NCBI GenBank assembly: GCA_016169945.1
Contig: JADLSH010000373.1
Span: forward strand, 1,674,001 to 1,738,000
DNA from: Trachythela sp. YZ-2020
Lineage: Eukaryota > Cnidaria > Anthozoa > Malacalcyonacea > Clavulariidae
DNA: 64,000 bases
Direction of reading: 5' to 3'
The notes beneath the pieces were generated by a model. That model did no database searches, was not told the origin of the DNA, and was given only the letters and a program-made list of their open reading frames with translations. Position 1 is the stretch's first letter. The number at the start of each line of letters is the position of its first letter. Both the position numbers and the translations under genes were made by a program. Positions 7,488 to 61,234 of the stretch are shown piece after piece.

Positions 7488-7710
7488 TTAAAAAGGGAAC
7501 TCCAGCCCCAAGACAAGTTAGGTTTATATAAAAGATAATACCTTAAATAGATTGTTCCTGAAATATCTCGGCCTAATTCTTTATAGTAAAGGAGAAATTG
7601 TTCGTCAAAGTTCGCGATTGTTGCAAATTTCTACGTCATATTGTTCTTTCCCGTGCAGATGCGAATTTGGTCAGCGCCCTCTTTTCGACGTCATTGCGTG
7701 CTTCTGAGCT
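7488..7710. promoter_or_regulatory. bidirectional promoter region that is itself a repeated, TTAA-bounded sequence
   Basis: This lies between the divergent DUF6589 and P2RX7_C genes. From TTAA at 7488 it reads AGGGAACTCCAGCCCCAAG... and recurs in reverse orientation at 26985-27156 (ending at TTAA) and 14848-14905. Homology to 27.1 kb stops exactly at TTAA, suggesting an element end with a TTAA target, as in piggyBac or Kolobok families. It also supplies the unoccupied version of the site used by the 12-kb element (around 7645-7660). Confidence 0.6.
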
Positions 7711-14584: not shown

Positions 14585-14905
14585 GGTTCCTGGGATCCAG
14601 GCCCTTGGTGATATTTTGGTCGCGCTACTTTTTCAGAAATGCCAAAATTTGCCTGTTTGAGCCTTTATATCTCTGAAACTAAAAGTCTAAGCCAAAAACT
14701 AATCTAGAACTTACTAACTAACTTTTCATGCCTTATCCGAATCAATAAAAACCCATTTTGGGTTTATAAGCACTTTAAACTTTTATTGCTATAAGTATAG
14801 AATTTTAATACAGCGCGCCAGTAATTTTTAAATTCCTGTGATAAAGAAGCACGCAATGACGTCAAAAATGAGGGCGCTGACCAAATTCGCGTCTGCATGG
14901 GAAAG
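14585..14905. repeat. left part of the target copy interrupted by the 12-kb transposon
   Basis: 14585-14790 matches 12068-12240 inverted; 14848-14905 matches 7653-7710 inverted and ends in GGGAAAG. Its continuation is found after the 12-kb element at 26985-27156, so the two are halves of one repeat copy. The join is shown intact at 7645-7660. Confidence 0.75.
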
Positions 14906-15346
14906 TACGGTGGCCCACAACGGCAACACAGATATATAAATTTAGTTGCAGAAGTATATATGGATTCATTAATATATTAAAAATGCAGATATACATTTCC
15001 ACTACAGAGATATATATTTCTACTACACAGATATATATTTCCACTACACAGATATATATTTCCACTACACAGATATATATTTCCACTACGCAGATATATA
15101 TTTCCACTACACAGATATATATTTCCACTACACAGATATATATAGTTCACTACACAGATATATATATACTACACAGATATATATTTCCACTACACAGATA
15201 TATATTTCCACTACAGAGATATATATAATATATTGACACCACATGAACGATAATCATGTCAGTTTGAGCGATGGAAAAAAGAGCCCTAAACCACGTGCAA
15301 ACAACATCGTCAAAATGGCCGCCTGTTCAAGTGGCGTGAAGTTCTG
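14906..15346 (+). repeat. left terminal inverted repeat of the 12-kb element
   Basis: Contains, in order, the conserved ~100-bp tip, an array of 21-bp tandem units, the block ATAATCATGTCAGTTTGAGC, and ATGGCCGCCTGTTCAAGTGG at 15315, equal to the start of the HECT gene in the right TIR. This left copy is uninterrupted and shows the empty site of the LINE that split the right copy. Confidence 0.85.
14990..15230. repeat. 21-bp tandem repeat array (left TIR)
   Basis: About eleven copies of a 21-bp unit, CCACTACACAGATATATATT plus one T, with point changes. Because 21 is divisible by three, open frames run through it on both strands, producing spurious heptapeptide repeats (QIYISTT, VVEIYIC). A shorter inverted array (~5-6 units) lies at 26785-26905 in the right TIR. 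Confidence 0.9.
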
Positions 15347-15413
15347 CATCAATTGTCTATAAATGACTAAATGTCTACATCAATTGTGGGTTTTTCCGTT
15401 TTTGTTTGAAACT

Positions 15414-16571
15414 ATGGCTATGGCCGCAACAAGTTCGTCCGATTCAGATTCCTTTGAAGATTAACAAGATTTGATAGAATACTATTTTTCAAGAGGATTT
15501 CAGTATAAAAGCATAATCGACTTTCTGTCTAAAAAGCATGGAATCAACATTTCTGAACGAACGTTATGAAATCGTTTGAAGGAATTTGGCCTACAAAGGA
15601 GATCGCCGGTTTTTTATGCCAATGAAATACGTTGAGTTATACAAGATAAATTAAATGGTCCAGGCAATATGGGAGGATACAAAACGATGTGGCATGCTCT
15701 TAGAACTGAGGGACATCAAGTTCCAAGGCGTATTGTTGAAGAATTTATGAGAGAACTGGACCCTGAGGGTTGTGAAACCAGGCGTGCAAAACGCTTACGC
15801 AGACGAACGTATCGAGTACCAGGCCCTAATTACTGCTGGCATACAGACGGTTACGATAAGTTGAAGCCATACAGGTTTCCGATACACGGGTGTATCGATG
15901 GATGGAGTCGAAAAATTATATGGCTGCGTGTCGCAAGGTCTAATAACAAACCAGAGATCCCGGCATCGTTTTACGTACAAAGTGTAGAGACATATGGCTG
16001 TCCAGTAAAATTACGTAGTGACTACGTAGGGATTATGGCAGCAATGCAGTGCGAGTTTCGTTCCTGCGCCGATGCGCATTTTTACGGCACATCACCTGCC
16101 AACCAGAGGATCGAGGCCTGGTGGTCCCAGTTCCGAAAAAACCGTTCTACGTGGTGGATGAATTACTTCAAGGATTTGTGCGAGAGGAATCTGTTCAATC
16201 CAGATAACCATCTTGAAAACGAGTGTCTTTGGTGCTGTTTCTCAGATGTCCTTCAGAATGACCTCGACTATGTAAGACAGCAGTGGAACACCCATCGAAT
16301 CTGAGATTCCAAACATGACACAATCCCCGGCATTCCGGACGAGTTATTTTATTTTCCTGAGAAAAAAGGGGGCATAGAGAATTTAAATCTTCCAATTTCC
16401 GCTCAACAAGTACATTTTGTACAGGAGAATCTTTTACAATTTAACGAAGAGGAAAATATCATGCAGGATTACTTTAACTATATTTTCGAAAACAGTGGAC
16501 TTCAACAGCCAACAAATTGGGAAGAGGCTGAACAGTTGTACTTCACCCTTATGGCAATTGCTAGGAGATAA
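15414..16571 (+). pseudogene. integrase-core (DDE, rve-like) transposase, four in-frame stops
   Basis: A single uninterrupted frame of 386 codons, with no shifts but four premature stops (TAA ~15462, TGA ~15572, TGA ~15629, TGA 16302-16304). The N-terminus is acidic/serine-rich, then an HTH region ('FSRGFQYKSIIDFLSKKHGI'). The core reads 'GPNYCWHTDGYDKLKPY' (first catalytic Asp), 'HGCIDGWSRKIIWLRV', 'SDYVGIMAAMQCEF' (second Asp region) and 'GTSPANQRIEAWWSQFRK' (Glu). After the 16302 stop the same frame continues with 'TIPGIPDELFYFPEK', normal for the family. Stops without frameshifts suggest recent inactivation by C-to-T-type changes. A 15-codon upstream ORF from the TIR precedes it (15315-15362). 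Confidence 0.85.
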
Positions 16572-17404
16572 TGACTTTACTGTAAAATAGTCTTCAAAAT
16601 TTACATTATTTTGTTGCCCTAATTTTTTGCAAATACCTTTTGGCAACACCAAATATGTAACATCTATAATATATCTATAAAATTGTACTGAGGGATATTT
16701 TCAAGCATTTAGGTCTACTACCGCTTTTCGGAAAACAGAAGATTGAGTTTCTAAATATTCTGTATAGTTCATGCTTCCCCAGAAAATTTTGAATTTCAGA
16801 AGTCCCAGAACGCATTTCCGGCGATTCCTGCATGGAATTGGTCCTCGTTACAGTCGTCGTTCTCTCTTGAGTATGGAAAGTATTACCTGGAATCGAATAT
16901 TTTCTTCCTTTTACAGCTTAATTTCGTCCGGATAAATTGATTTGGGAAAAATAATAATTTACGTAGGAAAATTGAGTTTCAAAACTCAATTGAAGATTGA
17001 GTATTTTTGCCGTATACCGGTAGTACTGGTACTGTTAGCATTTCAAAATACGAACTCGGCCACCGTACGTATTTGCCATTGATCTATGACATTTGCCATT
17101 GTAAATAATAACAAATTCAATAACACTTTTATTTTAAGCTTCAATGTATGTTCAAATAAGTGGACTCCATATATTATGAACAATGAACACTTATATTTAT
17201 ATGCAATTTATATTTATATGCAACAAGATGGGAATATGTAAAATGTTCAAAAAATTAGTAAAATGTTCAAAGATTTATAATGTTCGAAAGTAAAATGTTC
17301 AAAAATTTAGTGTTAGAGAAATCAGCAACTTTATACAATACTCATTCACAATGGGTAGACCAATTCATGACTGTCTAGTTTATACACCCTGTAGGAAAGT
17401 TCCA
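16572..17404. other. non-coding centre between the convergent genes
   Basis: AT-rich sequence between the transposase end and the HECT gene end. No ORF supported. Short direct copies of AAAATGTTCAAA occur at 17240-17300. Confidence 0.5.
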
Positions 17405-18309
17405 TTAAACCAGTAAGATTTGCGGTGAGCCGATTATGCCTGTCGTCATTTCGGTTTTGAAGTCGCCAAGATCACAATAGGTAGCAGTGGGCAACAAAAT
17501 GGTGGGACCACATGTACGTGCTTGCGGCAACCTTGACTCTTTTGATGGCACCATACCATCTGAAGATGGCTGTTTGGGATCTATGAACATTATCATCGGT
17601 ACGTTATTTGCTTCCCATCCAACATTGGTTTTTGCTCAGAACCACTTGCAAAGCGAAGAATGTCCTTTGTTTCGACTGTGGATCCTGGCTCTGTGACAAA
17701 AAAGTATATTCATATTAAAATGCTATGCAGTATACCCTACAGATTAGGTCTTAGTAAATAACAACACAACCAATACAAGACAACATTGTAATTACTGTAA
17801 TATAAGGATACTGAAAAACCAACATCATTCACAACATCTGCCAGGAATTTGAGAAATGTTCTTAAAACTTGACGAATTTTTTACTTCAGGTACTACACTG
17901 CAGACTATAATATTGTTAATATATAAGCATTATCAAAGTAATATAATAACGACAATGGTATAACCTGAAGTGCTTCTGACAAAAGATAACCACAGTTCAT
18001 AGACATCTTCTTCTTTCTCCCTTCTGTTGGTTCCAACGTCACTGAACTGTGGCAGAAAGGTTCTGATTAAATAATCAGCGCAAACATCGTCCTGCTGAGC
18101 TTCACCATATACAAACACAGGGCGGAATGATGGAGCATACATCTTGATTAGCTCCAACAGTTTGAAATGTGCCAAGCCCTGGCAGAATTCTTCCAGCTCA
18201 CTTCTACATAAAGGAGTATAATGTATTAATGTAAACAATAATTTTGTCTTCATAAATATAGAAATCAATAATATTATATGTCAAAGTGCCAAATCAGACT
18301 AATCATAGT

Positions 18310-19535
18310 TAGAGTACATTAGAGTAAATACAGCGGTTGACTGTTGTGTAAAACTACCTGAAAAATACAATGAGAACTTCGACGTGTCGAGCGAAGGCCC
18401 TTCGTCTGGAAGTTAGTAGAATGGGTCGGGGGAAAACATGTGCTTTTATAGTGAATACAAAAGCGATCACGTGATAAAATAAACCAATCAGATGGATTTA
18501 ATCAAAACAAACTATAAACAAAATATGGAAATCACATCACAAAATATATTAGCATATAAGGAGCAGCGAACAAAGATAACAAAGCAAGAAAGACAGAAAA
18601 CAAGGAACAAAGTATTAGATCAGGTGAGATGTAGAGTATCTGCTGATGGCAGGCATAAGCAGATAGGAGTTAAATGTAAGAGAGGCGCTCATTAATGCCA
18701 AGAGGATGAATGGTGCCAAGTTGGGAAATGAGACGCATTTCTTGCCTTTTGCGGCTATCATTACTACCAGAAATGGGACACAGAGCTCGAATTTTCATAT
18801 CTGAAACACTGTGATTGCCAGTGTTGAAATGTCTGGCAACAGGTTGTTTAGCATCATTGTTTACGACAGCACGACGATGCTCACCAAACCTTATCCTTAA
18901 ATATCTACCAATTTCACCAATATAGAGCATCCCACATTTACTGCATGAAATACAGTAGATGAGATGAGAGGAGGTGCACATGAAATGGTGCTTAATGGTG
19001 TACTTAGATTTTGGTGCCGAAATTGTAGTGGAAGAATCTATATACTTACAGGTTTTACACAGCTTCACACCACAAGGAAACGTGCCATTAGGTGATGACG
19101 AGTCCTGTGGTAGAGAGCTGTGGACTAGGGTTTCACGGATATTTTTACTATGTCGAAACAAGACTAAGGGATTATTGGTGAAAATGGAAGATGTTTCAGG
19201 GTCGTTTTTCAAGATATGAATATTCTTCCTAATGACATCCCTTACTTTGAAATTGAAGGGATGGTAACCGAGAACTAGGGGTATTTTGTTGTTGGGAACA
19301 TTAGACACATGGTCTCAAAGGGTTTCAGATCAGGGAATATTGGAGGCCTTCGAAAAGGCAGTATCTAAGAGAGGGGTTGGATAACCACGTTGGACAAAAA
19401 AGTTTCTCATTTCCTGACTTTTGGTATGGAAGTCCTCATCTTCACTGCAAATGCGGCGGCGAAGGAACTGAGAGAAGGGAATGGACCTTTTAGTGTGGTT
19501 GGGGTGGGAAGAAGTAAAGAGAAGATAGCTATGGA
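18310..19535 (-). mobile_element. 5'-truncated Penelope-like element with GIY-YIG endonuclease
   Basis: Minus strand. 19535-19320 holds the end of the RT domain ('SYLLFTSSHPNHTKRSIPFS', 'RRICSEDEDF', 'FFVQRGYPTPLLD') with stops and a frame change. 19308-18670 encodes the C-terminal module: 'GYHPFNFKVRDVI', a Cys-rich linker (CGVKLCKTCKY), and the GIY-YIG core 'SCSKCGMLYIGEIGRYLRIR' with 'FGEHRRAV' and 'ARHFNTGNHS'. This RT + GIY-YIG order defines Penelope elements; here nearly all of the RT is missing. The 3' terminal segment at 18310-18430 recurs inverted at 48290-48400. It interrupts the HECT coding exon after 'VIGKCRYSND'. Confidence 0.85.
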
Positions 19536-21149
19536 GTCATTAGAGTACCTGCATTTACCAATCACCAAATGCTTGATAACATAGTCCACAATAGCTTTGA
19601 TATCTTTCAATTTGAGTGACAGGTTTTGGTAACCCGCGTCGTACATCAGTTCGGTTACTGCCTCTTCCTGCAAGGTCTTCCGTAAGACCACTTCGCTGTC
19701 AATTTCCAGAAGCTAGAAGGAATAAAATGATGCACATTTCATGTGTTTGGACAAACCCGTGGCCCAAAAATCATACCAGAAAAACCTTTTACTGACTTTT
19801 TTGAAATATGTTTACAGTACTGTGAGTGGTACGTACTGATCATAAAATTTATACTGCATCTATTGTTGGCAAATAAGTGCTAACAGTGTGCTAATTATAC
19901 TTCATAAAAATTGTTCTGCTTGCTAAAATGCTTAAAATTATATAAAATTAAATGTACCAGTTACGCAAGCTTGACGCAAGTGCTAATGAAGGAAAAAGGC
20001 CAGTAAGTAAAATCCTGTCCAGTCCAGTAAATAAAATTTTGTTCACCCACTACGATGACTGATACATACAATGATTTTGCCAATCTGCATATATAAATGT
20101 GTGCAAACGCTCTCCTTCTTAAGGATGTCTCTATGTGGAGCATAGGGAACTTCCTCCATGGATGGCTTTGTCTTATCATACCCAATTGTTATATAATCGT
20201 AAATGGACGGTGAAAGCACAGACGGTGGATCTCCTCCAAAGATTAATGAAACACCAAACGCCCGTCCTGCCATGTAATATTCATGGCTATTCAGCTTACT
20301 GGCATTATGCGTCAATATATATTCTCCTTCATTAGCAGTTTCTTGAAAGCAACCTGAGTATTGCACCACATTATTCCTAAGTAACCTTAGGAACTCTCGT
20401 TTTGGTCCTTGGTCATCTACTGTTTTCATGCTATCACTAAACTTTATCTATGAACACAAACATTAAATAGCATTATTATGTAGCCTTGTGTGATAATGTG
20501 CAAACTTTGCAGGGATATACAGTACGTTTTGCATTTTACAATTACAGTTTTCCAGTAAACCTTGCATTTTACTCACTTTAAGGCAATGGCTTTTAATTTC
20601 TTCATCTTAATGGCTAAATCTAGAATTTTATCAAAGCTGAGGATGTTTATTACACATCTTCCATGGCTATATACCGGTAGTAAGAAAGTTTCCTCTCTGT
20701 AAACATTTAGTGATGAGTAAAAAGATACTAGAAAATACCTCGAAATCCATTGTGTCATTTGTGTAACAAAGCTTTTCCATGGTTTCGATCTTCGAATGAC
20801 AAACACAACCGATTTTGTCAATGATACGACTGAGCTAACATGGTTCCTTAATAATGTAGCTACATCAAGCACGTCATTTATACATACAGGACCATCATCC
20901 CTATTAATTGAAAACAAATAATTTGGTGATGTATACACAATCCAAAAAAGGTTGTCCTTTTGAAATCTAAAATATAAACTCTAAAATCAGATAATTTTAT
21001 ACCTTGTCATAGAATAATAGCACAATGCAAAGCAAGGATATGTAAACAGCTAATTAAAAAAAGGTTGTCTCTTTGAATTCTAAAATATAAAATATGAAAC
21101 CAAAATGCCTTCTTCACATGCTCACTGAAGAAGTGCGTACAAGATTTTC

Positions 21150-21220
21150 GATTATATATCAAGTGATGTGTACTGTACTCTACTGTACACTGTATTGTAC
21201 ACTGTACTGTACACAAGACA
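21150..21220. repeat. GTACACTGTA-type simple repeat
   Basis: Degenerate tandem of TACTGTACACTGTATTGTACAC, self-complementary in part. Lies in a HECT intron. Confidence 0.6.
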
Positions 21221-21254
21221 ATTTATTTAGTACTTACAAGAAATTAACTATTTT

Positions 21255-22010
21255 AAATATAGTCCCCGAGCCGGCGCGAAGCGCCATGCGAGGGTATACT
21301 AATTCCACTCGGATATTTACACCCGGGTATGTGAAAACATTGTGGAATGCAAAGTTGTCCGCCATTTTTTTTGTCATGGACCCGACGGTTTTATAAGTTA
21401 TGCGCATGCGCGAGTTCAAGCCGAGAGAAGACTTCCTTTTTGCAAACTTTTTTCAAAAATAGTTTTGCACTCATTTTATAAGCAAGTCTCTATGTAAGTA
21501 AGTTTATATGTTAAAGGACATTGGCAACGAAAATTTTTATTGCCTATATATTTCAGGCCTTACCTACGGAATACTTAATTTCGCATTTTCGCTTGTCTGC
21601 TGCATTTAGTTCTACTGCATTTAGTTCTTGAGAAAATTATGAAAATGTTCGGCAGTTGTCCGCCATTTTGAAAAAATCCTGATATGCTAATTTATGCATG
21701 AATCATTTTGTGACGTCATTAGTAGGGTTCCGCAAATATAACAATATAAGATCAGTATCGCATTTAACGCGTTCTAAGAACATTTTGTCAAAAGATGGTC
21801 CACTAAGATTAAATAAGCCAATAAAAATTTTCGTTGCCAATGTCCTTTTAAGTCTCCAAAACAAGGTAAATGAAAATTATTTAGAGGACAAATTAACCAG
21901 AGGAAAAACAGTCGAAGACCAAAAAAGGAGCGCGTTTCAAATGGGCAAGTGTCTATTTTGCATGCTTGCTTTGCCGATTTATAGCATGCAGAATAGTTTG
22001 TGAATTTGAA
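21255..22010. repeat. dispersed non-autonomous repeat, copy A
   Basis: Shares long blocks in the same orientation with 39745-40290: GAGGGTA(TA)CTAATTC, CTCGGATATTTACACCC, AAGTTATGCGCATGCGCGAG, AGTCTCCAAAACAAG and the GCATACTTG-like end. It sits in an intron of the HECT gene, so it entered after or with the 12-kb element. Likely a MITE-type family; copy B is shorter by internal deletion. Confidence 0.65.
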
Positions 22011-22712
22011 AATGTGTAGAGCATTCTGTGTGATCAATACAACATTGATTGATCTTAAGAGTATTTTAGTATTGATTCAAATACGTTATAGAAAAATATA
22101 TTGCCACCAAAAACAACTTGCTGTTTGTATGCCTTCGGGTTTGTTCGAAAACATATTTACTCAGAACCCTTTTTCTTTTGCCAAACAATTCGGTTGCCAG
22201 CAGTTTTAATTTACAAGTTCCCATTTGCTTTTCTTGAACATCACAAGTTTTGGCACATCTAATGCCTGCAGACTCAGTGTATTACTAACAAACATTGTTT
22301 TTGAAAGCTGTAAAACAACAACTTTGCTTTGGCTTCATTTTTCTATTTTCATGTTTTGTTAGGATCTTCTGCAATACGCATGCGTTGACGATTGTTTTTC
22401 AACTTAAAAAAAATGATTGGCTGCCATAAGTCTAATTTTGTTCTCAAATTTAATTATTCAAGCACTGCCTAAAATTCCAAAATTTATGGCTTATAATGAG
22501 CAAATTTAATTTTATATGTTCTATTTATCATTTGTTTGGTCTATATAAACGGTTTTGATCAAGTATTATTGTATCTCGGAACTTTCTAAAATGCTCAAAT
22601 TCATGTCTGAACATGTTTCAGTTGCTTCATGTTCTGACGTACGCTTTTCAGCCAATCAAAAACGTTCTTATATTAGATATATATTTTAACAGATTTATTC
22701 TTGGGTTAAATG

Positions 22713-22862
22713 TCTTAACCCAGGGTTAACTAATCGCACCGCTAACCGACCTTTGAGCAACGCCAAATTAACCCAGGATTAGCTAACCCAGGGTTAAGGA
22801 TTGTTAACCCTGGGTTAGCGCTAATCCTGGGTTAAGTTAACCGGCTTTTGAACAACCGGCCC
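22713..22862. repeat. palindromic MITE with TTAACCCAGGGTTAA arms
   Basis: The core is a near-perfect palindrome: arm 22768-22797 (TTAACCCAGGATTAGC...), 6-nt loop, arm 22804-22835. It is flanked by GGTTAACTAATCGCACCG... and GTTAACCGGCTTTTGAACAA. This resembles a hairpin repeat type seen in many animal genomes. Confidence 0.75.
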
Positions 22863-23918
22863 CAGGTCCACAGATGCTGTGTGACACAGCCTGTGCATGT
22901 CAACATCTTGTTCAGCATATCGAACTACATATCTCTGCCAAGTTTCATACTGGTATCACATTTTGCACGATTCTGCTAAATTTGGTAATAAGCTATGGCC
23001 ACTACATGGCTCAACTTACTTAGTTGCTTTCACATCATCTTTTGAAGTGGAGACAATCTTGGCTTCTGCTGCATTATCACCTTAATCAGCAAATCAAATA
23101 TTATCTTAGTTAGTACATTTTACAACAATGCAGGCCAATGACAGGGCTCAATATTTGCAGTATCCCGATATCCTACGTTTGGATACTAGATACTGTCAGC
23201 TCAGTATCTCAGACGGATAGTCTATTAAATATTATGAAATGACAATTGCGATTGGAGTGAATAGTAAAAATGCTAGTATCCACTTGGATACTGGGAAATA
23301 CTGGAGCCCTGAATTAGGTCATGCCCCTTGCAGCTAGTCAACAGTATGGCACTATATATTCTGGGCTTCTGGCAAACAATTGATTTATATATAAATATGA
23401 TTCATGCTGTATTTTATGTAGTACTCACCAAAATTACTTTACAAAAGACAGCATACAACTGTACATTGATATTTAGCATGCACTTTAACTTGTCATTGCT
23501 ATAATGCTGGTGTTAGACCCTACCGGACCTTATCATTTATTGTATTTTGCTCCAATGGCCTTGTTTTCATGTGGGTTGTTTCTTCATGTTTCATGCACAG
23601 ACTTGTGATTGGGCTCACAATCAACGAGAAACATATTTGTGCACAAAACATGGGGATATAACCTGCATGTGTGGCATTCTAAACCAGGCAAACATGGAAA
23701 TGAGGCCAATTAGCTAGCTAATTAGCTTACTAGGCTAATTTTTGTTATTTGTAGTTATATTAGCATTTGTATTGTATGTATGTAATCATGGGTGTATTAC
23801 CTTGTAGGGGACCTAGAGTCCTTTTTGTAATGTCACCTAACCCTTTGAGTAAAGTTTTTAAATGATTAAAAAATTAGGGTAAAATTCAATAAACAGTAAA
23901 ATCTATTACTATATACCA

Positions 23919-24302
23919 AGTGTCAAAGTTCATTTTTTTCGTGGCTTTTCATTGGACAAGAGGTCCACGCGTGGCGGTCGGAAAATTATATTGTTCCACG
24001 TAACCAATGGCAACGGGCAACAATACATTTATTGTTGACTGGTCAACGACAAAACCGGAAGTAAACAGCAATGGCAAAATTAAACAAAATCTTAAAATCC
24101 TTGTAATCAAACAGATTAAAATCTTTTTAATCGAAAAAAATTGTTGTTATTTTACCCTTAGTAAATAATAAATCACTTATTTACTGAAACCTTGGGAAAC
24201 AGTGTGTTTTGTTCTCGGGTCCACAAAACACACTGTTTCCCTCGTGTTTAATAAGAGTTAAATAGTAATCGTATAAGATGAATTTTCAACTTTTGACACT
24301 TA
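23919..24302. repeat. MITE with AAGTGTCAAA termini and internal hairpin
   Basis: The left end AAGTGTCAAAGTT and right end AACTTTTGACACTT are inverted copies. Inside, 24194-24212 (GGGAAACAGTGTGTTTTGT) pairs perfectly with 24223-24241 around a 10-nt loop. It lies in the first intron of the HECT gene. Confidence 0.6.
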
Positions 24303-25016
24303 CTTGTAGTAGATATTTAACTTCTCGACATGCATTGTGTGGATGATTCCCCTAACCATGTGACAGGTTGCAGTTCTTCTCCACTATCACTGCTGTTGAC
24401 ATGTATCATATCCGTTTCGACTTCTGTCGAGGTTGGTAAAAGATATAAACTAACGCGTGAATATCCAAATCCCGAAACTTCCTTATATCTCTCCAAGGTA
24501 AATGGCTCTGGTGGTTCTGTGCCCGGAACATATTCGACATTGCTGCCATCTTTAAACACCAGCACATAGGGGATTTCACCGTCGAATCACTTGTTAAAAT
24601 CGGCATGCTTTTTACCGCCACAAGAATCGCATCTACAAAGGCGGACGTAGCAATTTTTAGCAGAATGGTTTCTCCACGTTTGACTTTTAAGTATTCATCC
24701 ATGATGCCCACTTGAATGACCACTTCTTTGTTTTGTATCTTCCTCTTCTTTTGTGCGCTCGAACCCTTATTCTTCCTCGAAAAGAACTTTGTCGCCGGTT
24801 TCTTTTTCGCTTTAAAAGCGTAAAGCTCGGAAGCGAAAAACTAGGCAGAGAAAATCTGCTCGAGATGCTCCTCTTTCTGCGTGACCACATTTCCAGAAGC
24901 ATTATTAACAATTTTGTGACCACACTTTGGGCAAAAACAAAGCTTTGCTCTAATGCAAACCCATAAGTTGAACAGAACTTCACGCCACTTGAACATGCGG
25001 CCATCTTGACGATGTT

Positions 25017-26660
25017 ATGAAGATGCAGCGGAAGAAATCGTTGCTTCTCTGACTCAAATCTTTAACAAATCAATCAGTACTGGTATTTTTCCAGATGATT
25101 TGAAAATTGCAATAGTCTCACCAATTTATAAAACAGGAAATAGAAATGACTGCAATAATTACCGGCCAATATCCATTTTGTCAGTAATCACAACAACTTT
25201 CTGCATATCTAGAAAACAACAACATTCTAACAAAACAGCAAGCAGGTTTTAGGAAAAAACAGTCAACACAAACATCCCTATTAGGAGTTACAAATAGTTG
25301 GTATATAAACATGGATAAAGGGCTATTGAATGGAGTTATATTTTTGGATTTGAAGAAAGCATTTGATTGTGTAGATCATGATATTTTGATTAAAAAATTA
25401 TGAATTTATGGAATTCACAGATTAACATTGGATTGGTTTAGATCGTATTTGAGTAACAGAAAACAAATATGTAAAAGTAATCAGGCAATGTCGAGGCAAT
25501 GTGCTATAACATGTGGAGTACCACAGGGGTCGAATTTGGGGCCCCTATTATTCTTAGTTTATATTAATGATTTGCCAAAATGCATGGATGGTGCTTCGGC
25601 AAGCATGTTTGCTGATGATACTAATTTAACTGCCACAGCCAGATCGATTGACGAATTAGAGGAAAATCTGAATAAAAATTTGGAATGTGTACATCAATGG
25701 CTAATTAGCAACAAATTGACCCTAAACAAAGATAAAACAGAATACATGATAATAGGCTCAAGAAGTAAACTAAATAGCATCGATCGGGATCCCTTAATAA
25801 AACTAGCAGATACAAACATCAAACGTGTAAAACAATGCAAAACGTTGGGGATCGTTGTTGATGACCAGCTTTTATGGAATGAGCATGTTGGTAATGTAAT
25901 AAAAAAAGTTTCTAAAGGATTAGGTATGCTAAGGCGACTTAAGCAGGTTGTGCCAAAAGAAATTTTGATCACAGTATATAAGTCATTGGTTCTTCCTTAC
26001 TTTGATTATTGTAGCATGGTCTGGGATAATTGTAGTAGCTATTTGCTTGATAATATGCAGAAAATGCAAAACAGAGCGGCAAGAATAATTACGGGTAAAT
26101 CATACGAGATCCGATCAAGAGACCTGTTGAGAGAACTTGGTTGGCAAACACTTAAGGAAAGGAGAGATATTCAGAAAGCTACACTTATGTTTAATGTTAA
26201 AAATAAGGAAGTGCCGGAAAATATGGCTAATATGTTCAGTTTATCTAATAATGAAAAGTATCAACTTAGAAGTAACGGGCTTAATTTTCAGCTAAATAAA
26301 CCTAGAACAAATTTCCTGAAAAAAAGCTTTAGTTACACAGGAGCAAAATGCTGGAATGACTTGCCAAATAAGGTTAAGACAAATGAAATGTCGACAGGTC
26401 AATTCAAGACGTCTCTCAGAGAAAACAGTAACATTAAATAGATCTAGCTACATATGTTCCCATCTGCATGTAATAATTTTCCTTTTTAAATATTTTTAAT
26501 AGTGTGATAATTTTATACTTATGTGTGCATTTGACTAGGTTTCATTCTTGTTTTCTAATAATATTATGTAATAGCAGTTTCAAACGGCCTCTTGAAAAAC
26601 AGATCATAGGTGTTCTGAAGGGCTACCGTTGTAAAATATTTGTAAATAATAATAATAATA
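25017..26660 (+). mobile_element. 5'-truncated LINE inserted in the right TIR
   Basis: Coding sequence begins mid-ORF2 ('VASLTQIFNKSISTGIFPDD', 'NNYRPISILSV'), has a short deletion/shift near 25190 and a stop at about 25400. It then runs open at 25428-26441 with 'GVPQGSNLGPLLFLVYINDL', an intact 'FADDTNLTA' active site, 'NKTLTLN'-type motif 'SNKLTLNKDKTEYMI' and the thumb 'YCSMVWDNCSSYL'. The 3' UTR ends in (AAT)n at 26645-26660. A 5-bp duplication ATGTT flanks it (25012-25016, 26661-26665). The uninterrupted site is at 15303-15310 in the left TIR. Confidence 0.9.
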
Positions 26661-26784
26661 ATGTTGTTTCACCTGTTCGCACGTGGTGTAGAGCGCTTTT
26701 TTCCATCGCTCAAACTGACATGATTATCGTGCACGTGGTCACAGATTAATGATCTTTAATCTGTGATGTGGTGTCAATATATTA

Positions 26785-26905
26785 TATAATTATATCTGCG
26801 TAGTGGAAATATATATCTGTGTAGTGGAGATATATATCTGTGTAGTGAACTATATATATCTGTGTAGTGGAAATATATATATCTGTAGTGGAAATGTATA
26901 TCTGC
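26785..26905. repeat. 21-bp tandem repeat array (right TIR)
   Basis: About five to six units, inverted relative to the left array (TAGTGGAAATATATATCTGT type), with more sequence drift than the flanking TIR tip. Confidence 0.85.
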
Positions 26906-26984
26906 ATTTTTAATATATTAATGAATCCATATATACTTCTGCAACTAAATTTATATATCTGTGTTGCCGTTGTGGGCCACCGTA

Positions 26985-27156
26985 GGAAAGAACAATATGG
27001 CGTCGAAATTTGCAACAATCGCGAACTTTGTCGAATAATTTCTATAAAGACTTTCTTTACTATAAAGAATTAGGCCGAGATATTTCAGGAACAATCTAGT
27101 TAAGGTAAACCTTTTATGTAAACCTAACTTGTCTTGGGGCTGGAGTTCCCCTTTAA
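26985..27156. repeat. right part of the interrupted target copy
   Basis: Begins with target duplication GGAAAG and continues AACAATATGGCG..., matching the reverse complement of 7653-7488 to its TTAA end at 27153-27156. Together with 14585-14905 it is one copy of the TTAA-bounded repeat. Confidence 0.8.
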
Positions 27157-31299: not shown

Positions 31300-32300
31300 T
31301 CACTTTAGGATTGTAAATGCCTTTCCACATTCTTGTAGTGCTGCTTGGAGAGCCACCTCAAACAAACCATAAGGCAAGACACTTGTTGGCAGCTGAAGCT
31401 TCAGAGAACATGTCGATGCTTGAATACAGCTTTGGTTATGAAACTCCGCAATTTTCTTTCCTTGTAGCAGACAAACATCATTGCCTCCAATGCAAAACTT
31501 CAAAAAGCTTTGCAGCCTTTCTTGAGACGACTGTTCCAAAAACCTAGTGAGCATAATGCCAACTACTTGATGATGAAGTTCAGTATGTTGCTGAGGGAAA
31601 TGGAGACATTCTTTAAAGGGCTTATGCAGCGAAAATTCGGTTCGAGTGAAACTCTCTTATTAAAGAGAACGTTTGAAGTTATGAAGATTGACGTTTCGAG
31701 CTTTTCCATATCCCACTTCGTTCTTGAGATATTAAGATGTGTTTGATATGTAAATAACATCACTGTGACATCACACTGCATAATGAATTGTTGGAAAATC
31801 ACGAATATCTCTGAGATTATTTAACCAATTGCTTAAACTGTCATTTGTTTCTGCCTATCGAAGGACACCACACAAGTCATGCAGAGTTTGAAGTGATTTA
31901 ATTCAATTATTTCAAAGATATTCGTGATTTTCCAACAATTCATTATGCAGTGTGATGTCACAGTGATGTTATTTACATATCAAACACATCTTAATATCTC
32001 AAGAACGAAGTGGGATATGGAAAAGCTCCAAACGTCAATCTTCATAACTTCAAAAGTTCTCTTTAATAAGAGAGTTTCACTCGAACTGACCAAACTTCCG
32101 CTGCATAAGCCCTTTAATGCATACAGCTGTAAGAGGTTTTGGTTTTGGATGGAACAGATCTTCGAATAATTGGGGATATTTTTGCATAAGCACCAGAACA
32201 CCAAGGGTTTCCAGCCCCTTGCGGAGTTGGTCCAGTGCCATCTTCCGCTTGCCAATTACTTTGTATGCTCCAATTGATTGGATTATATTTCTTTATTTGT
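31300..32300 (-). pseudogene. HECT-like gene fragment interrupted by a TTAA MITE
   Basis: Minus strand. 32300-32118 encodes 'GAYKVIGKRKMALDQLRKGL', 'LVLMQKYPQLFEDLF', matching the HECT C-lobe entry. After the MITE, 31612-31300 encodes 'CLHFPQQHTELHHQVVGIM', 'RFLEQSSQERLQSFLKFC' and the terminal 'QASTCSLKLQLPTSVLPYGL', with the TC-x-L motif that carries the catalytic cysteine in HECT ligases. Removing the MITE with one TTAA leaves a continuous frame. The exon 5' of 32300 was not found. It differs in sequence from the HECT gene of the 12-kb element, so it is a separate paralogue. Confidence 0.65.
31613..32117. repeat. ~500-bp MITE with ~190-bp TIRs and TTAA target duplication
   Basis: The ends AAAGGGCTTATGCAGCG... 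(after TTAA 31613-31616) and ...CGCTGCATAAGCCCTTT (before TTAA 32114-32117) are inverted copies. The arms remain nearly identical for about 190 bp (GAGTGAAACTCTC..., ACATCACTGTGACATCAC...). No coding. TTAA targeting points to piggyBac- or Kolobok-type mobilisation. Confidence 0.9.
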
Positions 32301-36899: not shown

Positions 36900-39332
36900 A
36901 TGTCAATTTCACATATCTTCACACAATCAATACTGAAATCTTGTACCCTAATGTTTTCTCGAACCTTGGCAATCAGTGGCTGCATTTGATCCTTGTAATC
37001 AGCGGGAAACTCCAGATCGTCCAGATCCTGGTCTCTGACAAACTTTCTCATCAACTATAACTCAACGGATTTGTTATTGGTGTGGTATTTCCCCAAAATT
37101 CTGTTATATCGGTCAAAGCTAAACTGGTCCATAATCTAAAACACAATCAGCCAAATGGACGTGGAGGTGCATGTTTGGCGTCACACATTCTTTGCCATAA
37201 ACGTTTTCAAATTCTTTACAAAATTGTAAAAGATGATGATGCGCAACACATACATCTGTTATCTTTATTAATGTGGTGCAAAGAAGATTACATGCGATGA
37301 CAAAATGCACCCAGCAACTGTATTCTCTTTTGGGAAGATGGCGAAACAAAGCAAACAATGAAAAAACAGTGACCCAATTCTTCCACTGTTCCGCAGTAAA
37401 CCCTGAAAACATCTTTGCGATCTTAGTTGAAATACGTCCTAGTTCAGAGGGAACACGGCATGAATCTACTTTCTCTCAAACCTGTTGTAAGTCATTCGCA
37501 CTTAAAGTCAAGAGTTCTAACCAAACATCAACCAAGTGTTTTGCTGTCCCCAAGAAGAGATTATGCATGGGGTCAACTACAGTAAAACGAACACAGTTGA
37601 AGTTTGGAAGTCTTAAGAGCTCAGAATACCACACGCACTGTATAAAGATTTAGTAGTACTTCTAGCTTCCTGTGTTGTCTGTGCTAGTATCTCTTCGATA
37701 TGTCTTCGGTGTTCTATTATATTTTGTGAAGTAAAACTCTCAAAGCCCAAGTAGTCATTTGGAACACCCACTCCCCCAACTCCAAAAGCTTTGTTACATT
37801 TATTGCATCCCATCCTGGAATGATACCCGGTGAAACCACATACTTTTCTGCTAGCCGGAATATCGCAAACAACGCACAATAGAGTAGCTCTAAAACATTC
37901 AGGGATAATTTGTGAAACAGCGTGTCGAATCATCACCCCATCATTCCACAGAATAAGAAGTTCATCCACAAGAGGTGAAATATATGTGTTTATATTTAGC
38001 TGGGGTTCACTTGGACCAGGAATAAGGCCAACAAGAATTACATTTTCTCTCTTAAAATGCTCATGCCTGGGAAGATTCATCAACACAAGGTATATCACTC
38101 CCATAGAATAAATTGTACGGTCGAACGGCTGCATCCAATCAACGTTTAACATCAGTGCATAATTTTGTGGAGCAGCTAAGAACGGCACACCTTCGTACAT
38201 TTGAAAATCTCCCAAATCCGCCCATTGAAAACATCACCCATTATTTGACCGACGGAACATACTTCACGAGTGCGCCACAGTTAACAACGATCGACAAAGT
38301 TTGGCCGTTTCACCAACCTCTTGATACTTTCAATTACACTCTGGTAGCAGTAGACTTAATGAGAGTATAATCGCTTCATGTTGTCTTTCAAAGTTACCTC
38401 TTTAAGCAAGGATATCGTAGACTTTAATTCAGCGTCGATAAGGCCACACGACACAGTAGAACATATTGAGGTTTGAACTTCATTATTTGCCTAGGTGTGT
38501 AAAGATATAAACAAAATCTCAAAACGTCGAGATTTTGTTTATATCTTTTAGGCACACGCGAAGCAACCCTCAATTTGTTCTCTTTAAGCAAGGTTTTCCC
38601 ACAAGGGCACCGTCTCCGATGCTGCCTGTGATTGGCAAATTTCACGAAACTGCACTTTTTGGATTTGTTGCATGACCCTACACTATAATAGCTATCTTCG
38701 AATGTGTATAAAGAGTAGCACTTTGGACATACAACGTATTTTCTAAACTTGTCTTTCGTTAATCCAAGTTGTTTCTTGAAACAGTACATTGTGCCAGGGA
38801 AAGCAATAGCAAGGCCTGCAAACAAGTTACTAGACATACTAAATTATTCAAATAATCGTTTTAAACCAGAGAGTAAAAATTCAATCCCATTGTCAGATAT
38901 ACCAAAACACGTCCAGAAGTAAGCAAGTAGAATAAATAAACAACGAGTACATGCACTATTCAACGGATGAACAGGGCGAGAAGTGGATTGGGTTTGCACA
39001 TCAACAGACGGTGGAGTTTCGTTGTGTTCAACAAAATCGTCATCAATCTCAGCACGTTGAGTATTATCCCACACCTTGTGATATAGTAGGCTGTCTTGGT
39101 CACGATTATTATTATCATTATTCAAAGACTCATCGGAGTTGTATCGATTATCACAATCTGAATTAATTTCCATTGGCCCCACGTCTTCATCACTACTTAT
39201 TTCATTACTTTTTTCCCAATCATCAGTAAGCCATGTCATAAAATCTTTCCCTGTGGTAGCGAAACGTCCTAGGTGGTAAAGAAGTCTTGCAATGCGGACA
39301 GAACGTAGTATAATTAAGGCTGAATCCGCCAT
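36900..39332 (-). pseudogene. CACTA/EnSpm-type transposase (tnp2-like)
   Basis: Minus strand. 39332-38844: acidic N-terminal part. 38837-38424: zinc-binding segment (CPKCYSLYTF, C-x2-C 'RRRCPCGKTLL'). 38380-37613: core with 'NVDWMQPFDRTIYSMGVIYL', 'NLPRHEHFKRENVILVGLIP', 'CDIPASRKVCGFTGYHSRMG', 'CNKC'. 37412-36900: C-terminal 'MFSGFTAEQWKNWVTVFSLF', 'VTPNMHLHVHLADCVLDYGP' and 'LMRKFVRDQDLDDLEFPADY'. This is the order of EnSpm-type transposases with a tnp2 domain. Frameshifts near 38220 and 37600 and stops show it is inactive. Short introns cannot be excluded for some gaps. Terminal CACTA motifs were not located. Confidence 0.75.
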
Positions 39333-43039: not shown

Positions 43040-43850
43040 GTTATTATTATTATTGGTCTAATGTTGTGCTACCATCTCAGCTAGTAACAACGTTCAGGGG
43101 CTCATGTTTGAGCTATAGTTGCCTTACCATACAGTCTGGTAATGGTATTCAATATTTCGTTGTGTTATTCTATTTGACCTTTGTGCTACCATTTCAGCTG
43201 GTAACAACATTCAGTGGCTCATGTTTGAACTGCAATTGCCTTACCATACACTCTGGTAATGGTATTAAATATTTCGTTGTGTTATTCTGTTTGACCGTTG
43301 TGCTACCATTTCAGCTGGTAACAACATTCGGTGGCCCATGTTTGAACTATAGTTGCCTTACCATACAGTCTGGTAATGGTAATAAATATTTTGTGGTGTT
43401 AGTCTGTTTGACCGTTGTGCTAGCATTCAGTTGGTAACAACGTTTGGTACTACATGTGTGAACTATAGTTGCCTTACCATACAGTCTGGTAATGGTATTA
43501 TATATTTTGTTGTGTTATTCTGTTTGACCGTTGGGCTACCACTTCAGCTGGTACAACATTTGGTCGCTCATGTTTGAACTATAGTTGCCTTCCATACAGT
43601 CTGGTAATGGTATTAATATTTTGTTGTGTTGTTCTGTTTGACCGTTGTGCTACCATTTCTGCTGGTAACAACGTTCGGTGGCCCATGTTTGAACTATAGT
43701 TGCCTTACCATACAGTCTGGTAATGGTATTAAATATTTTGTTGTGTTCTTCTGTTTGACCGTTGTGCTACCATTTCAGCTGGTAACAACATTCTGTGGCT
43801 CATGTTTGAACTATAGCTGCCTTTTATACAGGCTGGTGAGGGCATCCAAT
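43040..43850. repeat. 117-bp tandem repeat, about seven units
   Basis: Landmark TGCTACCATTTCAGCTGGTA recurs at about 43068, 43185, 43302, 43419, 43535, 43649 and 43766, giving a 117-bp period (114-116 in two units). Because 117 = 39 codons, long open frames cross it. It begins just after the DIRS recombinase stop and may belong to the 3' region of that element. Confidence 0.9.
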
Positions 43851-44866: not shown

Positions 44867-46084
44867 ACATTCGTTAATCGTTATGTTTATGACTTATACT
44901 CAGTATTAAGTTATAGAAAGACAAAGAGTAAAGAGTAGTTACATGTATGATATAGTTTAGTTTTGTAAATATTACAGGGTTCATATTATTATTAAATTTT
45001 GTTTACAGTAATATGGCGTTTACACTAATACTGTATATGTTTCTACTCTATAATTCCGGACTGTCACTTCAAATTTTGCACATGGGCGGCTATTATATAT
45101 TAGCCCAAGTTAAGTAAGTCCAAGTCGAAAATCTGAATTGTTTGGTGAAATAGTATAAAAACTAAGGGTGTATAGTCGGCCACTGCCTTCAACTAGAACA
45201 CCGACACAATTTTTAAGGGGATTTTTTTCAAAGCGGAAATACTGTTTAACTTTCGTTTTCCTAACAATGTCAATGACAATGCATATATAAACAGTACTGT
45301 TGTTTACGTTCACACTTCAAAACGTAATTATTTATATCACAGAAAATACAGATTACAGATAGAATACATGCAGTATACTATGTATATCCAGCCATCGACT
45401 TGCACAAGTTTATTGACATTGGCATTGTCCCTATAGTTCATAAGGCTATAGTTGTATTTGCAGTAATATAGCCTTTAAACTGCTACCACATTTACCTTCC
45501 TTATCATTTATATAATCTGCAAACTCGCATTTGAGATACAGTCTTTAAATATTTTGTCATAATCATATTCTCGAAAGCAAATGTCAAGTAATAATGCTCG
45601 GGAAGCGAAAATAAGTGAATTTCTACAATCCTTCCCGTTGATTATCCAGTACTGAAGGCACGTTGGTAAGTCAGTTATAATGACTGATTTCTCTCCGGTT
45701 CATCGACATATAGTTATACTATATATTGATAATTTGATATAATGATGTCTTGTCGCTAGACTCGCTACACCGCACATGTACGAATCTTGCAGTCACCTCG
45801 CGGCCACGCACTTGACAGCGCACGCGCATTTGTGATTGCACAAAAAATTGCGTGTTCCGGGGGAAAGTTCGCCAATTTAATGTCAATTCAACGTCTTCAG
45901 CAAATGTTTCAAGTTCAATATAAACTCTCTAATTCAGCATAGTTTGTGTAAAGTCGCCATAAGATCAAAATAATATTTAAAGAAAAATGTGAAGTCCTGT
46001 CTTGAAGGACTAAATCACTAAATGTTAATGAATTTAAAAAGAAATATAAATTGTATGCACCCCCCGGAAAGTTTACACTATGAT

Positions 46085-46112
46085 TGAATGAATGAATGAA
46101 TGAATGAATGAC
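46085..46112. repeat. (GAAT)n microsatellite in the left arm
   Basis: About six GAAT units at 46085-46110; the corresponding right-arm site (46580-46612) has fewer and altered units. Confidence 0.85.
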
Positions 46113-46254
46113 TGACTCGTTTGAATTTTCGCCACTCACCACAATATTGCAAAGTTTCGAAGAAACTTTGCACTAAAAATGGGTAGCATTCAGCCACATT
46201 GCCTGTTGCTGACTTGGTTAACACAGCTTTACAGTAACAATATGCAGTCACAGG

Positions 46255-46467
46255 ATGGCCGTGAGAGGTCTCGGTCTAGCTGGCGATTTATTGTTTATTT
46301 TGCATTTGTGGTACACACATGAAAGTTTGGAAAATTTTAAAGCCAAAGTCAAACTACTGTTCAAACACGCTCACTATGCGAATCTTCTTAAAATCGACCA
46401 TTTTTCAAGAATATATAGCATTAAGGACAGTGCGCAAAAGGTATGTACTTTGACGTATAGAATCTGA
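46255..46467 (+). CDS. hypothetical 70-aa ORF in the palindrome centre
   Basis: Hydrophobic start ('GLAGDLLFILHLWY') then 'FKAKVKLLFKHAHYANLLKI'. The only open frame of note in the single-copy spacer between the arms. No homologue recognised; may be chance. Confidence 0.25.
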   Translation: MAVRGLGLAGDLLFILHLWYTHESLENFKAKVKLLFKHAHYANLLKIDHFSRIYSIKDSAQKVCTLTYRI

Positions 46468-47989
46468 AAATACCCTATATTCAACTCTATCAGCAGCTTA
46501 TCAGCTATATGAATAATTATTTTCGAATGATCCTTTTTAGTGCAAACTTTGCAGTATTGTGGTGAGTGGCGAAAATTCAAACGAATCAGTCATTCATTCA
46601 TTAATTCAATCAGTCTAAACTTTCCGGGGGTGCATACAATTTACGTTTCTTTTTAAATTTAATCAACATTTAGTGAGTTAGTCCTTCAAGACAGGGCTTC
46701 ACATTTTTCTTTAAATATTCTTTTGATCTTATGGTGAATTTACACAAACTATGCTGCACAAACTGACTCTAAATTGGCGACCTTTCCCCCTGAACACACA
46801 ATTTTTCGTGTAATCACAAATGCATATGCGCTATCAAGTGTGTGGCAGCGAGCTGACTGCAAGATTCATACACATGCCGTATAGCGAGTCTGGCGACAAG
46901 AACATTATCATTACATCAAATTATCAATATATAGTATAACTATAAGTTTGTTGATGAACCGGATAGAAATCAGTCATTATAACTGACTTACCAACTTGCC
47001 TTCGGTACTGGATAATCAACGGGAAGGATTGTAGAAATTCACTTATTTTCGCTTCCCAAGCATTACTATTTGACATTTGCTTTCGAGAATATGATTGACA
47101 AAATATTTAAAGACTATCTCAAATGCGAGTTTGCAGATTATATTTATGATAAGGAAGGTAAATGTGGTAGCAGTTTAAAGGCTATATTATTTCAAATACA
47201 ACTATAGCCTTATGAACTATAGGGGCAATGCCAAATTTCAAGGATATTTAAGAACAATTTACGACAAAAAGAGGAAATTTAGATTTGAAAGTGGAAGCAC
47301 TGGATGGGATATGCCGCATGGGATTTGAAAATTTAGTGAATGCAAATCAGAGACTTTCATTCCCATGGCCTTATAACCTCTATGGTATAAAACGGGATAA
47401 TATAAACGTGCTGCAAAGCCTGCAGTCCCAATAGTCGTGTTAATTTAAACTTTACAGTATACCTTGAATTGATGGGATATAATTGGATTGGGATGTATAA
47501 TCTTTGAAGTGTGAACGTAAACAACAGTACTGTTTATATATGCATTTTCATTGACATTGTAAACAGTATTGTGTCTGTGTTCTAGTTGAAGGCAGTGGCC
47601 GACTACACCCTTAGTTTTTATACTATTTCACCAAAAAATTCAGATTTCCGACTTGGACTTAATTAACTTGGGCTAATATATAATAGCCGCTCATGGGCAA
47701 AGTGACAGTCCGGAATTAGAGAGTACAAACATATACAGTAGAGTCATATTACTGTAAACAAAATTTTCAACACAACATTTAATAATATGACCCCTGTAAT
47801 ATTTACAAAACTAAACTATATCATACATATAACTACTCTTTGTCCTTCTATAACTTAATACTGAGTATAAGTCATAAACATAACGATTAACGAATGTGTG
47901 AGACAATCTTTATTGCAGCAAAAGCCTCCTAAATTTTGTTTTTTCTCATCAACAATAATCAAGTGTGCTATGACATGCATTTCTAGATC

Positions 47990-56912: not shown

Positions 56913-57266
56913 ACAATCAAGGAATAGTTGCATTGGGACAAATGAAAAAATCTTACGTCAAAACAAAAAATCATTTTGCGCACTAGTATTATCCCCTCCC
57001 CCGCCCCCACCTTACAATGTTGCCGGTTGACAAACATGTGCCATTGAAACATATTATATGCTTTTTCCCAATACAGATTGTGGTGAATAACCAACATTGT
57101 ATGGTGGGGCGGGGGGAGGTGGGAGTCCATGTAGGTGTATGAGGTTTTTTAGTATATGCGCTATAGTCTTATAATGTCATTTAACCTTTATCTAATTGTA
57201 GATAATACGATATGTCAGAAATGCCGTTTTGACGGAAATTGTGCCGATTAACTATTCTCTGATTGT
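56913..57266. repeat. 354-bp direct repeat, left copy (MITE-like)
   Basis: Starts ACAATCAAGGAATAGTTG and ends TAACTATTCTCTGATTGT, so it has imperfect ~18-bp inverted ends. Nearly identical, same orientation, to 60880-61234. Preceded by TA. Internal G-rich and C-rich tracts (CCCCTCCCCCGCCCCC; GGGGCGGGGGGAGG) could pair. Confidence 0.9.
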
Positions 57267-57399
57267 CTGAAGTGGGCCTGCCAGGAAATATTAGCGAAAT
57301 ACGGGGAAATCTAGTACTAAATTTCAGCCATAAAAATATCGTTTATTTCAGATATATCTATTGTTTGCAATTTCCCGGCTAAGGCTTGTAAGTTATAGA

Positions 57400-58640
57400 A
57401 TGGCTCAGCGCAATCTTAGAAGTAGACAACAGTGTATTGTATACCTGGTAACCTACAGCCGAGCTGATTTGTCTATAGTTCCTACAAGACAGGTCTTTGC
57501 CAATATGGTGGTTAAAGCGTTCGAACAACTCGATGTCGCCAAAGTTTCGCACTGGGTTGTCGCACAAGAGAACCATCATGACAAAGTATCAGGACCACTT
57601 GGTAGTCATTATCACATGGCTATAAAACTTACTCGCCAAGCACGATGGTGTAGAGTCCGTGCCAGATTGGAGTCAGAAAACGGAATAAATGTTAATTTCA
57701 GTTCTAGTCACGCTACATACTACAGCGCATATAAATATGTCACTAAAGAAGACAAACATATTGTGCTATCGGACGGACACCCTGAGCTTAGTGGTCCACC
57801 GGTGACGGAGGCGGCAACTAAAGCTAAAAAAGGCAAACTATCAGCGGGCAAGGGGAAAAAAGGTAGAAAAAGGGAACGCTATACGACATTTGATGTGGTG
57901 GAGATTATTCGGGAAAATAAGATCAAGTCGAGGTTAGAACTTATTAATCTGGCTCTAAGACAAAAAAAAAAAAGGGAAAAACTACTCTAGCTGAGTTCAT
58001 AGCTAACCGCGGTCAGAAAATCGTGAACGAGGCATTGGATTTGGCAAAGGAGTTCAACGATGCACCGCAAAGATTTGCACGAATGGAGAAAAGCCGTGTG
58101 CAGCTTTTGAAGGAAGCGTATTCCGGAGAATGTGTAGGTGAATGCAATGGCAAATGGTTGGAATTGGGGCTGAGCTTACTCCAGTGAAACGACATCCCAT
58201 TTCCAAGTTTTTGTAACGCAATGTTAAAAGCGCTTAGTCGTGGTCGGGGGAAAATACCGAAATGTGTTTTTATTTGGTCCAGCTAACACGGGAAAGTCAT
58301 TTATGCTATCACCGCTCAAGTCAATTTTCAAGACTTTCACAAACCCAGCAACTGGTACATTTGCATGGATGGGGGTTGAAGATGCAGAGGTTGTGCTACT
58401 GAATGATTTCCGTTGGCATCCGTCCATAATAGCCTGGGGCGACTTCCTACAGTTACTAGAAGGTGATACAGTCCATATCGCAGCTCCCAAAAACTTTTGC
58501 AGCAAAGACATCGAGTTTAGCAAGGACACACCTTTCTTTGCTACAGCTGATGCTCCCATTGTTCTGGTGAAAGGTGGCTCCCTGGATCAATGTAATACCC
58601 AAATGATGCAGGTCAGATGGGTATTTTTTCATTTTTGACG
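57400..58640 (+). pseudogene. CRESS-type Rep (HUH endonuclease + SF3 helicase), endogenous, frameshifted
   Basis: The reading frame opens at ATG 57400. Motif I is near 'VYLVTYSRAD', the HUH motif is 'SHYHMAIKL' and the Tyr/Lys motif is 'YKYVTKED'. This is followed by a basic Lys/Gly linker. A poly-A run at 57962-57973 shifts the frame; a stop lies near 58185, and another shift at about 58240 enters the helicase: Walker A 'GPANTGKSF', Walker B 'VVLLNDFRW', motif C 'PFFATADAP'. It ends about 58638. These are the two modules of replication-initiator proteins of circular single-stranded DNA replicons; the helicase also resembles parvovirus-type SF3. The breaks mean it is inactive as it stands. 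No capsid gene or obvious origin stem-loop was found nearby. Confidence 0.75.
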
Positions 58641-60879: not shown

Positions 60880-61234
60880 ACAATCAAGGAATAGTTGCAT
60901 TGGGACAAATTAAAAAATCTTACGTCAAAACAAAAAATCATTTTGCGCACTAGTATTATCCCCTCCCCCCGCCGCCACCTTACAATGTTGCCGGTTGACA
61001 AACATGTGCCATTGAAACATATTATATGCTTTTTCCCAATACAGATTGTGGTGAATAGCCAACATTGTATGGTGGGGCGGGGGGAGGTGGGAGTCCATGT
61101 AGGTGTATGAGGTTTTTTAGTATATGCGCTATAGTCTTATAATGTCATTTAACCTTTATCTAATTGTAGATAATACGATATGTCAGAAATGCCGTTTTGA
61201 CGGAAATTGTCCCGATTAACTATTCTCTGATTGT
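60880..61234. repeat. 354-bp direct repeat, right copy
   Basis: Same orientation and near-identical to 56913-57266 (a handful of differences). Followed by TA-GGTATG. The inner flank reads TTTTCAGA, the mirror image of TCTGAAGT after the left copy. Confidence 0.9.

Follow-up and report, generated by a model that had tools for sequence, protein, structure and literature searches.

A decayed copy of a probable two-gene IS3EU transposon, with a transposase and a HECT ubiquitin ligase gene, in the anthozoan Trachythela sp. YZ-2020

The 64,000-nucleotide stretch of the Trachythela sp. YZ-2020 genome analyzed here (the window; assembly GCA_016169945.1, C124:1674001-1738000) contains a 12,079 bp segment with matching tips, at window positions 14906-26984, in which a transposase gene and a HECT ubiquitin ligase gene face each other. 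This arrangement raises the question of whether the segment is a single transposon and, if so, whether the ligase gene is part of it or a host gene that was picked up in passing. We regard the segment as very probably a decayed copy of a two-gene DNA transposon of the IS3EU superfamily, an assessment that covers its identity and two-gene architecture, and not the target of the ligase. Coordinates are collected in Table 1.

A single insertion with paired ends

Both tips start TACGGTGGCCCACAACGG and are the same over their first 103 bp, and 14906-15038 agrees at 131 of 133 positions with 26852-26984 when the latter is reverse-complemented, much as an earlier first-pass annotation had proposed (~100 bp). 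The terminal inverted repeats (TIRs) are longer than it had stated: 14906-15346 aligns with 26984-26674 plus 25016-24973, the right arm being in two pieces because a fragment of a non-LTR retrotransposon (a long interspersed nuclear element, LINE) landed in it later. The TIR pieces found by BLAST are 96.9% (194 columns), 82.8% (232 columns) and 95.5% (44 columns) identical, the 82.8% piece falling in and around a 21 bp tandem array that is present in each arm. When the outermost 398 bp and 311 bp of the two TIRs are aligned globally, 296 of the 308 columns without gaps are identical, and the tandem array is heavily gapped. GGAAAG flanks the element on both sides, as had been noted, and a 6 bp flank match has a chance of ~4e-4 at the local composition. 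The flanks, when joined, match 7705-7491 on the minus strand over 201 of 226 columns with GGAAAG present once, which bears out the inverted empty site that had been pointed to upstream in the window; this site is a related copy of the flanking repeat (a paralogous empty site) rather than the same locus without the element. The segment is thus one genuine TIR-bounded insertion with a 6 bp target-site duplication (TSD). The 12.08 kb size given previously is right for the span, but 1.66 kb of it is the LINE, which two other copies, on C82 and C79, lack.

In the 578 Mb searched for copies, the same ends recur at two further sites, where 10-12 kb separate them, and each of these insertions has a 6 bp duplication of its own. 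The copies on C82 (8072286-8083472; 11.2 kb, CGTAGG on both sides) and C79 (2113070-2123263; 10.2 kb, ATTACC on both sides) are independent insertions. Both run collinear with the window copy along most of their length and lack the LINE. The flank of the C82 copy is an abundant repeat, and in the three repeat copies compared the match stops 22-27 bp short of the junction. A third copy, C126:154464-166589, has the flanks of the window copy itself (464/464 bp at one end, 98% of 512 columns at the other) and differs from it by 36 substitutions and 18 indels; because of the shared flanks and few differences it would most simply be the other haplotype of the window locus, a segmental duplication being conceivable too. 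We therefore count the window and C126 as one insertion which, with C82 and C79, constitutes family A. A copy on C195 has a large insertion inside it and no right end was found. Family B has four two-ended copies (C246, C219, C390 and C267) of 6.7-7.4 kb that are 99.3-99.7% identical and between them show the target duplications TATAAC, ACAACG, AATTTG and GTTATC, and a fifth copy (C82:8120873) without a right end. Perfect 6 bp duplications are present in seven of eight independent insertions with both ends found.

These copies dispose of the idea that two short elements, unconnected but alike at their ends, came to lie 12 kb apart by chance. A short non-autonomous relative does exist (2,307 bp, C124:580516-582822, flanked by TATTTC), but a single TSD pair spans both ends of the window element, the empty paralogue lacks everything between them, and the collinear C82 and C79 copies with their own TSDs refute the idea, to which we give practically no credence. 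The other copies in the assembly show neither ends that always belong to separate short elements nor a general lack of 6 bp duplications, either of which the first-pass annotation would have taken as refuting a single insertion.

The same annotation took the insertion to be fairly recent from its identical tips, which is weak evidence: identical tip runs of 94-124 bp are present in all three independent family A insertions in spite of a 5-6% divergence of the window copy from the other two, and we rejected dating by this means. The window copy differs from those on C82 and C79 in 5.9% and 5.0% of aligned columns respectively (C82 and C79 differ from each other in 1.1%), with a transposase synonymous divergence from C82 of 0.046. 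Because it is present in both apparent haplotypes and contains a LINE, the window insertion is not one of the youngest copies, and those of family B are younger.

Two facing genes and the class of the element

The convergent arrangement of the two genes is as had been described, with the transposase reading inward from the left TIR and the HECT gene inward from the right TIR, its start codon lying inside the repeat. The transposase has a match to rva_4 above the Pfam cut-off and one to HTH_21 below it. The catalytic D, D and E are invariant across 22 aligned relatives, as is a GTEN stretch beside the second catalytic Asp; the window copy has lost this motif and has four in-frame stops, so this copy is not autonomous, contrary to what it had been called. 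The C82 transposase has an open frame and retains D, D and E, and that of C79 is also open but shows N instead of the first D. In family B the C219 gene has an open frame, that of C390 contains one stop, and that of C267 is frame-shifted, with K in place of the last catalytic residue. The transposase has 1,089 matches, and the organisms named among the 120 listed, where most rows name none, are all cnidarians (Dendronephthya, Montipora, Desmophyllum, Paramuricea, Xenia and Clytia). Searches with the transposase alignment gave 43 pattern matches in viral contigs and 38 in prokaryote genomes, and no relatives among either at that sensitivity. The predicted fold matches those of MuA, IstA, TnsB and retroviral integrases, which belong to different elements, with low whole-chain TM-scores (0.14-0.30 of the query among the 50 matches listed); a PDB sequence search with the transposase profile at E up to 1 gave no match.

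The HECT gene is related to gene models of Dendronephthya (P0121) and Paramuricea (P0122) named G2/M phase-specific E3 ubiquitin-protein ligase-like, which are annotated at source as ordinary genes, whereas the gene here is part of a transposon. P0121 has a weak zinc-ribbon match, a UBL-like (ubiquitin-like domain) fold and a HECT fold. A PDB sequence search with P0121 gave no match, and one with P0130 (72.5 bits for PF00632), whose matches in this genome also adjoin IS3EU transposases, gave mostly HECT domains. The C-lobe of HECT ligases has a catalytic-cysteine motif of the form TC..LP, and this cysteine is kept in families A, B and D. In the window copy, exon 1 is out of frame because of seven small gaps relative to C126 that cluster at 24613-24938, with eleven elsewhere in the 12 kb, and this cluster may be a local assembly fault. 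Other HECT lesions are one stop in exon 1 of C126, one stop and one frame change in C82, and the loss of part of exon 1 in C79. In family B the HECT frame starts with a zinc ribbon in all four copies and the transposase frame in three of the four, with Pfam matches below cut-off. We also note that the transposase start on C246 (L036-L037), C219 (L043-L044) and C390 (L034-L035), CxxC..FCPxCG, resembles the ribbon of its HECT partner. A zinc-ribbon exon common to both genes by way of the TIR is not established, since on C246 both gene starts fall beyond the DNA-similar part of the TIR.

As described in PMC10045372, IS3EU elements have TA..TA ends, usually 6 bp TSDs, and an IS3/IS481/integrase-like DDE transposase, and PMC12730594 gives TAYGG..CCRTA ends for fungal members. 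The element here has TACGG..CCGTA ends, TIRs longer than 30 bp, the 6 bp TSDs described above and an IS3/IS481-like DDE transposase, damaged in the window copy itself. IS481EU (4, 15 or 25 bp TSDs and TNT..AYA ends) is ruled out by the 6 bp TSDs and the ends, and Ginger1 and Ginger2 (4-5 bp TSDs) by the TSDs (PMC10045372, main text). The family A TIRs differ from IS3EU as portrayed there in being long (~440 bp) with tandem subterminal repeats, and that main text contains neither 'HECT' nor 'ubiquitin', whereas in this genome a HECT ligase recurs as the second gene. The TET+ IS3EU elements of rust fungi share the TAYGG..CCRTA ends and 6 bp TSDs and likewise have a second gene for a protein-modifying enzyme opposite to the transposase, but it encodes an alpha-kinase, with a TET/JBP gene between (PMC12730594); no TET gene was seen in the window open reading frames (ORFs) scanned. 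The element is therefore a member of the known IS3EU superfamily, and the earlier statement that such transposons were not known as described holds only for the HECT gene: nothing with both IS3EU and HECT was found in the literature searched, which did not extend to Repbase entries, where a database-only description is possible.

Could the element instead belong to another class that makes 6 bp TSDs, such as the Polintons (Mavericks) or GingerRoot proper? Polintons encode an integrase, and also carry polymerase, packaging ATPase and capsid genes; none of the latter three was seen in the selected window ORFs scanned. Polintons and GingerRoot both generate 6 bp TSDs and GingerRoot also has TA..TA ends (PMC10045372, main text), but only two genes of its own were seen in the element and the TACGG..CCGTA ends match IS3EU, making another class very improbable. 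As between IS3EU and GingerRoot the name is a matter of choice, because the two form one supported lineage (bootstrap 99%; PMC10045372, main text).

Recurrence of the pair and possible roles of the ligase

The principal alternative for the second gene is that one family took up a host HECT gene as a passenger with no role, as might be thought from the commonness of HECT genes in animals. The transposase query P0002 gave 108 rows in the assembly, which merge to 106 loci, and two HECT protein queries gave at least 72 and at least 79 rows, which merge to at least 104 loci. At least 29 of the 106 transposase loci have a HECT locus within 10 kb, where 0.42 are expected, and all 29 pairs are convergent, counts that include haplotype copies such as window/C126 twice. 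All 29 lie within 5 kb and 23 within 3 kb, and at 20 kb there are at least 31 pairs, of which 30 are convergent. Chance capture is unlikely in view of this excess and the uniform orientation. The convergent pair is also present in several other families (with transposases ~46-59% identical to the query), and this, together with the HECT start inside the TIR, argues against a passenger in one family. The identities of both genes to the Dendronephthya pair also fall together (rho 0.89 for the N-terminal part at 16 loci; 0.70 over 9 loci when families A and B are each represented by a single copy), although the loci are related and rho is a description for which P-values are not valid tests. Finally, comparing HECT exons between families A and D yields ratios of nonsynonymous to synonymous divergence (dN/dS) of 0.11 and 0.13, and between family A and the C109 gene 0.12, although the low values rest on a dS of ~2, near saturation.

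Several observations weigh on the other side. Among the matches listed, 77 of the 106 transposase loci, and 75 HECT loci, are unpaired within 10 kb. The HECT loci at C124:577-580 kb and C109:868 kb have no convergent IS3EU-type transposase beside them, the latter neighbourhood having only weak (26-43%) integrase-like matches that are not convergent. A HECT lesion is present in all three independent family A insertions. Most other between-family HECT exon comparisons are saturated, family D and the C109 gene give dN/dS of 0.83 and 0.51, and the values between near-identical copies, which rest on few changes, range from 0 to 1.5. P0121 falls below the Pfam cut-offs (20.0 against 23.9 bits for HECT PF00632; 20.1 against 25 for the zinc ribbon), and its structure model is of low confidence (mean pLDDT, a per-residue confidence measure, 55). 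As to the boundaries, the two-ended copy on C385 has no target duplication, and its right end looks altered. Taken together we consider a mere passenger very improbable, and the HECT ligase gene is a recurrent second gene of IS3EU in this genome, one that is apparently under selection. The Dendronephthya transposase and HECT proteins are both assigned to a contig of 1,230,288 bp, which suggests the same linkage there; for the other ten relatives of the HECT gene, no transposase among the 120 listed of 1,089 is on a contig of equal length.

In the two-gene IS3EU element that we propose, the transposase would bind the tips, and perhaps also the 21 bp subterminal repeats, excise the element and join it to a target whose two strands are offset by 6 bp. 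A promoter for both genes would lie in the TIR, the ligase would be a selected accessory, and the window copy could move only in trans. Our first choice for the ligase, put forward tentatively, is a predicted ubiquitination of some host factor by which the element is silenced or restricted. A second and more doubtful prediction is that it ubiquitinates the transposase-DNA complex, which host machinery would then remove after strand transfer; this leans on the need of MuA complexes for the ClpX unfoldase for their removal. We incline, by a little, to a broader reading in which anthozoan IS3EU is a two-gene class with an ancestral HECT ligase, a selected partner of the transposase that steers the ubiquitin system for the element's own movement, and many invertebrate 'G2/M phase-specific E3 ligase-like' models would then be transposon genes, not host expansions. 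Such 'G2E3-like' models call for caution as they may be mobile DNA. A transposon with its own ubiquitin ligase would, if true, offer a direct handle on transposon control of host protein turnover, and the alpha-kinase at a comparable position in the fungal elements suggests repeated pairing of transposase and protein-modifying enzyme within the superfamily. The near-identical copies in this genome make the question testable.

Other features of the element and window

Table 1. Features of the IS3EU-type element and its insertion site, in window coordinates.
Feature	Position	Strand	Remark
Paralogous empty site, same flanking repeat, single GGAAAG	7491-7705	-	
Left target-site duplication GGAAAG	14900-14905	+	adjoins left tip
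Left TIR, tip TACGGTGGCCCACAACGG	14906-15346	+	self-alignment
21 bp tandem array in left TIR, 11.5 copies	14986-15226	+	
Left-TIR copy of HECT start region, reads MAACSSGVKF	15315-15346	+	inner end of repeat
IS3EU-type DDE transposase pseudogene	15414-16571	+	Pfam rva_4; four in-frame stops, GTEN lost
HECT ubiquitin ligase gene	17405-25004	-	tblastn exon matches, not transcripts; exon 1 frame broken
HECT exon matches	25004-24341, 20911-20765, 20447-20115, 19712-19551, ~18200-17948, 17694-17405	-	tblastn
HECT C-lobe exon, catalytic-cysteine motif ARTCGPTILLPT	17405-17694	-	
GIY-YIG-like ORF in a HECT intron	18670-19314	-	weak match, E 0.11
Inner part of right TIR, holds first HECT codons	24973-25016	-	
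Nested non-LTR retrotransposon fragment, splits right TIR	25017-26673	+	reverse transcriptase ORF 25404-26441
Outer part of right TIR, ends CCGTTGTGGGCCACCGTA	26674-26984	-	
Tandem array in right TIR, 5.4 copies	26791-26904		
Right target-site duplication GGAAAG	26985-26990	+	

The GIY-YIG-like ORF is presumably a remnant of a Penelope-type retroelement. An Rfam search gave no match at gathering scores. Elsewhere on C124, the 2,307 bp non-autonomous IS3EU-like element has TACGGTGGCC tips, with HECT exons on one side of it and a further IS3EU tip, at 583352, on the other.

The window contains several further repeats to the right of the element. Two 355 bp direct repeats (56913-57266 and 60880-61234; 98.6% identical, ~4 kb apart) enclose a 218-residue ORF (57334-57990, plus strand) and a Tc1-like DDE_3 ORF (59537-60184, minus strand), and the whole is possibly one composite element. 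A Transposase_21 fragment, which we take to be CACTA-like, is located at 37613-38233, and a 117 bp tandem array of 6.7 copies at 43063-43837. There is a large fold-back inverted repeat at 44867-47897, the gapped arms of which show complementarity of 80% over 466 columns and 84% over 748 columns, and a smaller inverted repeat at 31637-32089 has 188 nt arms that are 96% complementary and 77 nt apart.
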